Assembly (NCBI GenBank): GCA_018816335.1 | Contig: JAHIVP010000023.1 | Coordinates: 1-58,423, forward strand | DNA: 58,423 bases | Source of the DNA: Nanobdellota archaeon | GTDB taxonomy: Archaea; Nanobdellota; Nanobdellia; Pacearchaeales; GW2011-AR1 | Direction of reading: 5' to 3' | Shown here: one piece after another, positions 13,292-38,466 of the stretch | Position numbering within the stretch: position 1 is the first letter of the stretch | Layout of the letters: every line of letters starts with the position of its first letter | Program-made: the position numbers and the translations under genes | Notes under the pieces: model-generated | Seen by the model: only the letters and a program-made list of their open reading frames with translations | What the model was told of the DNA's origin: nothing | Database searches by the model: none

Positions 13292-14482
13292 TTAATTAGT
13301 ATGAATCTCTATTGCATCTCTGTGTTTAAGTTCGTGATCTTTTCCTATTGATTTTTTTGTTTTGACGTCTGTTGCTCTGGCAAAGTTGTCTCCGAAGTCT
13401 GAATGGAGTTTGTAAGCAAAGTCTAGTGCTGTTGAACCTGCTGGAACTAGGAAGCAGTCTGGAAGAACATTTCCTTTTGAATCTGCCAGCTTGTTTACTC
13501 CTGCAGGAAATATTGCAATGTAGTTTAGTAATTCAAATACTGTTTTATTTAATACATTTTGGATTCCTGTTGAATTGTAAATATCTAAAACATTTTTTTG
13601 AACAAAATCTAATGCTGTCTTCTGTTTGTCATTTAACTTTTCTTTTTCTAATATTTTGAACTCTTTATCTCCTGAGATATACTCTATTAATTTGTCTTTG
13701 TGAGCCTCTCTTAATGCTAGCTCTGCTTCTGATGAACACGGGATTATTGGATATTCTGGAAATTCATTTTTTATGATTTCTAGGTTTTCTTTTGCTTTTG
13801 GAGTATCACATTTATTTGCAGCAATTATCATAGGTTTTGAGATTTGTCTTAGTTTTCTTGCAAATCCAAAGACCTCTTCCTCGGTCCAAGAAGTTGGTTT
13901 TTCATAATCTAATTTTACTTTTAACATTACTTCTTTGACTAAATTTTCATCTATTTTTAATCCAGAGAATTGAGTTGCTATTTGTTCTGAAAATTTGCTT
14001 TTTGATGTTTCAATACTTTTTGCAAATGTTTTCCATACTTTTTTTAAAATGTTTGAAAACCATAAATCTAATTCTTTTTCTAGAAATTTTATGTCATTTC
14101 TTATATCTGTGTTTTCTGCATTTTGTCCTTGTTCATTTGTTTTTCCTGATAAGTCAACTATTTGAATAAATGCGTTTGCTTGTCTTAAGTCATCTAAGAA
14201 TTGGTTTCCTAATCCTTTTCCTTCGCTGGCTCCTGGGACTAGGCCTGCTACATCCATTAGCTCTACTGGGACAAATCTTTGATGGTTTATACAGTATCCT
14301 TCTCGGGGATTACATTGTTCATTGAAGTCTTTGTCTATACAGTCTATTCTTACATATCCCACCCCGTGATTTGGTTTGATTGTTGTAAAAGGGTATGAAG
14401 CTATTTCTACTTCTGCTAGAGTTGCTGCTTTGAAGAATGTTGATTTCCCTGAGCTTGGTTTTCCTACAAGTCCGATTAACAT
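13292..14482 (-). CDS. OBG/YchF-type GTPase with TGS domain
   Basis: This 396-aa protein has G1 [12 protein letters not shown], the switch [11 protein letters not shown]3 DVAGLV and G4 NKCD. It has the YchF-like insert [19 protein letters not shown] carrying two Cys. The C-terminal TGS domain is [24 protein letters not shown] ... [13 protein letters not shown]. Relatives act with ribosomes. First gene of an operon with the DUF167 protein and probably the two genes after it. Confidence 0.9.
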
Positions 14483-14888: not shown

Positions 14889-15006
14889 GAGCCTGTAGCT
14901 CAGCCTGGTTAGAGCACCAGTCTTATAAGACACTGATTCATAAGAATCGGAAACCAAAACTTTCTAGGAAAGCTGGGGGTCCGCAGTTCAAATCTGCGCA
15001 GGCTCA
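14889..15006 (+). tRNA. tRNA-Ile(UAU) with 43-nt intron
   Basis: Acceptor GAGCCTG/CAGGCTC, D stem GCTC/GAGC and T arm CGCAG-TTCAAAT-CTGCG are intact. The anticodon stem CCAGT/GCTGG closes on CTTATA|A, giving anticodon TAT. An intron at 14928-14970 occupies the canonical 37/38 site and contains hairpin GATTC-ATAA-GAATC. Most archaea read AUA with an agmatidine-modified CAU tRNA; a genomic UAU is uncommon. Confidence 0.85.
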
Positions 15007-15063: not shown

Positions 15064-15174
15064 GCCCCGTTAGTCTAGAGGCCAAGGATTCTGCCCTTTC
15101 AAGTGAACCTTTTTAAAAGGTTCCCAAAAAGACGAAGAAAGGCAGTGACCCGGGTTCGAATCCCGGACGGGGCA
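15064..15174 (+). tRNA. tRNA-Glu(UUC) with 38-nt intron
   Basis: Acceptor GCCCCGT/ACGGGGC, T arm CCGGG-TTCGAAT-CCCGG and anticodon stem CTGCC/GGCAG are intact, with loop CTTTCA|A (anticodon TTC). The intron, 15102-15139, folds as GAACCTTTT/AAAAGGTTC. A TATA-like stretch lies in the AT-rich spacer behind tRNA-Ile; the two may be co-transcribed. Confidence 0.93.
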
Positions 15175-37080: not shown

Positions 37081-37096
37081 TCGAAAGCTTTATATA
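37081..37096 (+). promoter_or_regulatory. BRE/TATA promoter of RNA candidate
   Basis: TCGAAAGC followed by TTTATATA is a strong archaeal promoter. Initiation is expected at about 37118-37122. Confidence 0.65.
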
Positions 37097-37117
37097 CTAT
37101 TTATGTTCTATTAAATT

Positions 37118-37285
37118 ATCAATTTGGCTAACAGAGCAATTGGTTGAATTCCTTCGGGTGTTTAATCAGCTTCGGATGTTAGTTGATTGTTATATTCAAG
37201 ACTGGCCGACTGGAGAAATAATTATTGGATCTTCGGGTTTTTTAATTATCTTCGGAAGTCGGTTGGTTATTGTTTTTCTTTTTGA
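37118..37285 (+). ncRNA. Candidate structured RNA with four CUUCGG motifs
   Basis: Stem 1 pairs CAATTGGTT (37138-37146) with AGTTGATTG (37181-37189). Stem 2 pairs CCGACT (37206-37211) with AGTCGG (37257-37262). Inside, hairpins are capped by C(UUCG)G at 37152 and 37231; two more CTTCGG occur at 37170 and 37250. ATAATTA/TAATTAT extends the second arm. A T-rich stretch at 37271-37285 could end the transcript. A 61-codon frame across it looks incidental. The rest of 36961-37379 has no gene. Confidence 0.5.
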
Positions 37286-37379: not shown

Positions 37380-37598
37380 ATGGCAAAATTGATTGTTGGA
37401 TATGATAAAGTTTCAGATTATTATTATTTTGTTATAAAAGGGAATCCTATTTATAGAATCAGTACTGGATTTGAAACTCCTGAAGATTGTGGTGAATTTG
37501 TTAGAGCTTGTAAAATAGAAGAAGCAATTACTGGGGTTGGTTTTGATGATTTTTCTAACGAAGAGATTAGAAGATTTTGGACGGTTGTTAATAGGTAG
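37380..37598 (+). CDS. Small unknown protein, paralogue of next gene
   Basis: This 72-aa protein (MAKLIVGYDKVSDYYYFVIKG...) shares a C-terminal pattern, FETPEDCGEFVRAC ... DFSNEEIRRFW, with the following gene. An AT-rich TATA-like stretch and short leader precede it. No family is known to me. Confidence 0.55.
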   Translation: MAKLIVGYDKVSDYYYFVIKGNPIYRISTGFETPEDCGEFVRACKIEEAITGVGFDDFSNEEIRRFWTVVNR

Positions 37599-37645: not shown

Positions 37646-37981
37646 ATGGAAATTGTTGTTGGGAAGGATAATGGAAGATATTTTGTTTTAGCTTATATTA
37701 ATCATTATGAGAATAAGAATAGTATTAGAGAGTTAGATGGGATGTTATCTCCTAAAGGTTGTCGTTCTCATGATGAGTTTAGGGATTCATTAACAGTTCA
37801 TGGAGCTAGAGATATTTTTGCTGGGGGTTTAGAAAGTCCTGAAGAGTGTGGTGCTGAAGTTCAACGATTTGTTAGAGAATCAAGACAAAAAATAGAGGAT
37901 ATTGATTTAAATGAATTGACTGAAGTTGATTTAGCTAGATTTATGAATGGATTAATGTCTGATTATCTTGAGGATAGATAA
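37646..37981 (+). CDS. Small unknown protein, paralogue of previous gene
   Basis: This 111-aa protein (MEIVVGKDNGRYFVLAYINHYENK...) contains LESPEECGAEVQRFV and NELTEVDLARFMNG, aligning with the previous protein's FETPEDCGEFV and NEEIRRFW. The upstream gaps of both genes share TTTTTAAAGTTGTATTTTAATT-like sequence, so promoter and gene were duplicated together. Function is unknown. Confidence 0.55.
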   Translation: MEIVVGKDNGRYFVLAYINHYENKNSIRELDGMLSPKGCRSHDEFRDSLTVHGARDIFAGGLESPEECGAEVQRFVRESRQKIEDIDLNELTEVDLARFMNGLMSDYLEDR

Positions 37982-38187: not shown

Positions 38188-38466
38188 ATGAATAAAACTT
38201 TTCAAGAAATAAGTAAGGAGTATGATTTTAAGATTGATAAGCTAGTTGGGGAGATAAAAAAGAAAAATGCTAAGAGAGTTGTGTTGCAGTTTCCTGATGG
38301 GTTGAAACCTTATGCTATTGTTATTTCTGAGGAGATTGAGAAGAAAGTTAAAAATGTTGAGTTGTTTATTTGGATGGATTCTTGTTTTGGTGGTTGTGAT
38401 GTTCCTTCTGAAATTGATGATGTTGATTTAGTTGTTCAGTTTGGTCATAGTGAGTGGAAGTATTAG
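38188..38466 (+). pseudogene. dph2: Truncated diphthamide synthase Dph2 (domain 1 only)
   Basis: The 92 residues match the N-terminal domain of Dph2: KRVVLQFPDGLKPYAIVISEEIEKK, then DSCFGGCDVPSEIDDVDLVVQFGHSE. The first cluster Cys lies in FGGC. Archaeal Dph2 is about 320-340 aa with three domains and three cluster Cys; here the frame stops just after GHSE. The stop lies inside the first copy of a TTAGATACTAAGGATTAT repeat, so an insertion or deletion removed the rest. No downstream remnant is visible. Confidence 0.8.

Follow-up and report, generated by a model that had tools for sequence, protein, structure and literature searches.

The bulge-helix-bulge (BHB), the site at which the tRNA-splicing endonuclease acts, is defined as a helix of 4 bp between two bulges of 3 nt, and introns excised in this way circularise (PMC6379350; PMC7714728). 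In Methanosarcina, a GNRA tetraloop is reported to cap the circle of 23S rRNA at its BHB junction (PMC12918454), and in Haloferax the 5' UTR of HVO_1309 contains a BHB-flanked intron of 46 nt that is cleaved in vitro (PMC7714728). Here we describe a family of archaeal hairpin RNAs that came to light in a window of 58,423 nucleotides (by window we mean the whole stretch of DNA that was analysed) and that shares features with each of these systems. As in archaeal tRNA introns with a BHB, two opposed bulges would flank a short helix located between two longer helices, and the enzymes are present; likewise, the cuts predicted in the tRNA introns of the window and of the related genome G031 read as NA/N and NN/A (the slash marking the cut), like those predicted in the hairpin family. 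In contrast to these introns, the family consists of stand-alone genes with their own promoter and without a tRNA, has an extra nucleotide in its common form and a conserved core sequence, and is predicted to gain a UUCG cap upon ligation. The predicted appearance of a capping tetraloop when a BHB junction is ligated is shared with circular pre-23S/23S rRNA (PMC12918454), whereas the present RNA is a small hairpin for which UUCG caps are predicted at both ends. The HVO_1309 intron is also a small BHB element of about equal size outside tRNA and rRNA, but it sits in the leader of an mRNA, in one species, and is not a conserved multi-copy gene. As a separate observation, the window carries two intron-bearing tRNA genes (14889-15006 and 15064-15174) that Rfam finds and ARAGORN misses, and both introns read as canonical BHB after position 37.

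The RNA locus consists of two tandem hairpins. An archaeal TATA box precedes them by about 30 nt, with a TATA-to-hairpin distance of 37 nt. An earlier note on this DNA had proposed a BRE and TATA box ahead of a non-coding stretch with a T-rich end, and these elements are indeed in place, in a region (37081-37285) that no plausible gene overlaps. The parts are the following:

37082-37096, forward strand: promoter, with BRE-like CGAAAGC and the TATA box TTTATATA (read from the sequence)
37126-37184, forward strand: hairpin 1 (65.8 bits with covariance model R1, 44 bits with R3; fold)
37126-37133, forward strand: hairpin 1, 5' strand of the lower stem, paired with 37177-37184 (covarying 8-bp stem)
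37134-37139, forward strand: hairpin 1, 5' loop strand GAGCAA (GRRNAA; from the 47-hairpin table), with a predicted 5' cut after 37139
37140-37175, forward strand: hairpin 1, predicted excised segment with the upper stem, the UUCG cap (37153-37156) and the terminal CUUCGG (37170-37175), placed by the BHB register; its circular fold closes a second UUCG loop
37176-37184, forward strand: hairpin 1, A of the 3' bulge and 3' strand of the lower stem (47-hairpin table, covariation)
37204-37264, forward strand: hairpin 2 (R1 60 bits, R3 38.1 bits)
37212-37217, forward strand: hairpin 2, 5' loop strand GGAGAA (47-hairpin table), with a predicted 5' cut after 37217
37218-37255, forward strand: hairpin 2, predicted excised segment with the UUCG cap (37232-37235) and the terminal CUUCGG (37250-37255) (circular fold)
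37256-37264, forward strand: hairpin 2, A of the 3' bulge and 3' strand of the lower stem (47-hairpin table, covariation)
37270-37284, forward strand: T-rich stretch, the likely 3' end of the transcript (read from the sequence)

The region 37115-37285 folds with -49 kcal/mol (z -4.96), a value that none of 200 shuffles reaches, and its opposite strand is ordinary (z -1.2). What had been described as multi-branched stems are in fact two simple hairpins, each broken by a single conserved internal loop. The word CTTCGG, considered too frequent for chance, occurs ten times on both strands of the 58-kb window against 4.7 expected, and four of these occurrences (37152, 37170, 37231 and 37250) fall within 104 nt of one strand, a density far above chance. 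Only those at 37152 and 37231 are C(UUCG)G hairpin caps; those at 37170 and 37250 are not caps but the 3' strands of the internal loops.

Plain DNA searches of relatives returned mostly noise apart from one weak BLAST match in G031, the first homologue, in which the same two-hairpin design lies directly upstream of the 5S rRNA. Model R1 was built from the four hairpins of the window and G031, those of the window being shortened by a mismatched pair or two for equal length, and with it further members came to light, one of them a second copy in the window's own genome (G000, contig C19, 13433-13493). The rebuilt models R2 and R3 recognised members in 18 of the 181 genomes of the taxonomic family and homologues in 20 of 200 genomes order-wide, and covariance models also placed homologues in nine further families of the class; the named records with members are Candidatus Pacearchaeota and Nanoarchaeota archaea. 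The true number of members is probably higher, because only few candidates were scored per genome; a gentler search, applied to 30 genomes that had given no match, added nothing convincing. Copy number ranges from single hairpins to arrays, with three hairpins in G560 and five, the maximum, in G465. Three kinds of candidates were set aside: a BLAST match in G008 (L013) that lies inside a protein gene, pattern matches in viral contigs that obtain no score with the covariance model, and pattern matches in bacterial genomes that reach at most 23 bits and were taken as chance. No family of Rfam 15 was matched at gathering or relaxed thresholds, none scoring above its gathering threshold, which agrees with the earlier note's impression of a structured RNA of none of the kinds recognisable by eye (tRNA, SRP, RNase P, C/D).

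The conservation of the fold is evident from covariation. In an alignment of 26 members, 17 of the 18 pairs show changes on both sides, and the covariation score of 0.66 (0.30 when shuffled) collapses if the partner is slid by one base. A larger set comprised 46 hairpins, trimmed so as to retain the lower stem, the core and the start of the upper stem; here each of the eight pairs of the lower stem and of the five pairs at the foot of the upper stem varies on both sides, and 95% of the cells pair. The upper stems of the models had been trimmed to equal length, which favours their distal pairs; the lower stem was left unedited. The resulting plan is a covarying lower stem of 8 bp, the conserved core and a covarying upper stem of at least 12 bp with, mostly, a UUCG cap. 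In 27 of 30 leaders, a box-A-like YTTAWA precedes the first hairpin by 30-40 nt, compared with at most seven in most other 11-nt bins. The checks suggested in the earlier note, folding significance and a covariance-model search of relatives, have thus both spoken for the RNA, the latter through homologues with stems that pair by way of many compensatory changes and TATA boxes at a fixed distance. It is nearly certain that the hairpin RNA represents a real, previously uncatalogued family of small RNA genes in one archaeal class, Pacearchaeota and relatives.

The most constrained part of the RNA is the internal loop, for which the 47-hairpin table gives the core 5'-G9 R10 R11 N12 A13 A14 and 3'-C43 U44 U45 C46 G47 G48 A49. 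In this loop, 5'-GRRNAA / 3'-CUUCGGA, the CUUCGG of the 3' strand is nearly invariant and the sequences of the stems drift. Because the stem sequences are free to vary, core and shape seem to be what selection keeps, and this same freedom argues against base-pairing with a fixed target. Pairs 9-46, 10-45 and 11-44 are possible in 47 of 47 hairpins (46 of 46 in the trimmed set), with R being only A or G opposite U. Residue 12 is a G able to pair with C43 in 25 of the 47 and a C or U in the remaining 22, every one of which has G42 and can form a 12-42 pair with C43 bulged; conversely, all 18 hairpins with A or U at residue 42 have G at residue 12 (Fisher 1e-7 with kinship ignored). Read as a BHB, the loop would have a 3' bulge GGA of 3 nt in all members, and pair 15-42 would decide whether the 5' bulge AA(U) has 2 or 3 nt. 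Pairs 12-46, 13-45 and 14-44, which make up the competing register, fail in 22, 1 and 2 members, respectively. Readings of the loop as a K-turn or as a simple sheared-GA loop were also considered and fit the observed variation more poorly.

We assign a probability of about 0.5 to the reading of this loop as a near-canonical BHB at which the tRNA-splicing endonuclease would excise the upper stems for closure into circles. The helix would be formed by G9-C46, R10-U45, R11-U44 and residue 12 with C43 or G42, flanked by A13 A14 (U15) as 5' bulge and G47 G48 A49 as 3' bulge. The endonuclease would then cut at AA/U and GG/A: the first cut, between A14 and U15, would fall where the upper stem begins, and the second, between G48 and A49, right behind CUUCGG. 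In the excised piece, C43(UUCG)G48 would close the cut end and bring the 5' and 3' ends side by side, allowing RtcB to ligate them into a circle of dumbbell shape, capped by UUCG at both ends; in the leftover flanks, a stem of 8 bp would close a loop of 7 nt, GRRNAAA, in the geometry of an anticodon loop. The conservation of CUUCGG would be explained by this process, since the hexamer forms a second C(UUCG)G cap after excision.

Several observations speak for the BHB reading, among them the core pairs possible throughout and the coupling of residues 12 and 42. Flanking helices are present on both sides, as the covarying lower (8 bp) and upper stems. G465, in the same array as the common type, and G388 contain hairpins of an exactly canonical type B (GAGC with GCUC or GCUU, bulges AAC and UGA), with an exact 4-bp helix and bulges of 3 + 3 nt; both type B hairpins of G465 are BHB also at minimum energy, and no canonical BHB motif arises in 200 shuffles of the G465 or G388 array. 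Of 43 predicted circles, 40 have the second tetraloop at the junction, and among 63 registers compared it is the BHB register whose circles have the lowest mean energy, although this minimum is shallow (-7.9, with the runner-up at -7.7) and is itself dependent on the tetraloop that is to be explained. Also in favour, 34 of 36 genomes have a splicing endonuclease (EndA) and 15 of 17 have RtcB, G000 having both. Against the reading, the predicted circles of type B have no UUCG cap, and the common form carries one extra nucleotide (C43 or residue 42) opposite the 5' bulge and is not strictly 3-4-3. Endonuclease matches number one per genome with or without the RNA, so that gene number is not linked to the RNA; such a single match suggests an endonuclease of the narrow-specificity type, which counts against the BHB reading, as does the patchy occurrence of the RNA genes compared with the nearly universal splicing enzymes.

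Nearly as likely as splicing, if a lesser possibility, is an unprocessed and stable RNA that acts in trans, in which the purine-rich loop (GRR/GGA, of the tandem G-A type) would be a putative protein site and its one to five repeats in one RNA would bind several copies of the protein. Tandem arrays of copies suit such a function, as does a loop that is far more conserved than the stems. Energy points in the same direction, since ViennaRNA favours a 3x3 GRA/GGA loop with GAA-UUC pairs in 22 of the 47 hairpins, the others adopting an open loop (21) or the BHB register (4), which also counts against the BHB reading. However, a protein site leaves unexplained the exact CUUCGG of the 3' strand, the coupling of residues 12 and 42 and the existence of exactly canonical BHB sister hairpins, as well as the changes tolerated at residues 13 and 14, by which the competing pairs are broken.

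An unusual H/ACA-type pseudouridylation guide, with the internal loop as the pocket and its strands pairing with rRNA, is very improbable. Archaeal H/ACA guides typically have a spacing of 15 nt and consist of one to several hairpins with an internal loop, a design resembled by the present hairpins, in which the 7-nt 3' strand and the 8-bp lower stem add up to this same spacing. Nevertheless, the aligned hairpins lack an ACA/ANA box 3' of the lower stem, and a K-turn or K-loop is likewise missing from their upper stems, plain helices that end in a UUCG-type cap. Moreover, the search for targets in the 16S/23S loci of the genomes tested was negative, with maxima equal to those of shuffled rRNA and no target common between genomes.

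Equally little credence can be given to the RNA as a 5' leader that regulates infB or another downstream gene in cis, because, although it lies on the same strand just upstream of infB in several genomes (81 nt in G154, 106 nt in G014), the downstream gene differs or points away in the window, the C19 copy, G031 (next to the 5S rRNA), G012, G153 and others, and the RNA has its own TATA box and T-rich tail. The neighbours are infB and dph2 in about half of the cases and otherwise SMC, 5S rRNA, LigT, uS2 and others, and since they vary, the RNA is an independent, promoter-driven gene and not a leader.

The neighbourhoods themselves yielded some further observations. About half of the members are situated between a dph2-like gene (diphthamide synthesis) and infB, and the window has the same neighbours in rearranged order, as well as two small genes 3' of the RNA (37380-37598 and 37646-37981) without a Pfam match. 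The dph2-like gene of the window (38188-38466) matches only residues 1-56 of a 302-position Pfam model, and the Dph2-like gene adjoining the RNA is similarly short (about 92-113 aa) in G007, G014, G154, G168, G163, G120, G013, G179 and G183; it is either a conserved single-domain piece of Dph2 or a split gene. In two distant families, the RNA (L037, the C19 copy of G000 at 13433-13493, and L089 in G375) adjoins genes for a LigT-type 2'-5' RNA ligase/cyclic phosphodiesterase and an arginase-family protein; the RNA ends on which LigT-type enzymes act are of the kind known from splicing. In G477 (L090), the RNA is flanked by a nucleotide-kinase-like gene and RNase P p30, and in G373 (L092) and G392 (L094) its neighbour reads as S-adenosylmethionine synthetase. 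In the latter genome (L094, 1570-1720), a large multi-branched RNA comes after the hairpin and has at least three perfect UUCG-capped hairpins; L098 contains a degenerate form of it.

In all, the hairpins constitute a covariation-supported RNA family in a class for which we found no comparable small-RNA catalogue in the literature, where no paper combining DPANN, covariance models and noncoding RNA was found. Going beyond the BHB reading of the loop, it is conceivable, at odds that we place slightly on the unfavourable side, that this is a dedicated gene family of Nanoarchaeia whose sole product is the 'intron', the tandem hairpins of a short transcript being released and closed by the host's tRNA-splicing machinery as circles capped twice by UUCG without any tRNA, rRNA or mRNA exon. 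Should the splicing reading hold, the tRNA-splicing endonuclease would have a dedicated client other than tRNA, the circle would cap itself, one junction read would be predicted for each hairpin, and small circular RNAs of great stability might be obtained by this route. The family may also shed light on the relation between stand-alone introns, split tRNAs and circular RNAs in reduced archaeal genomes.
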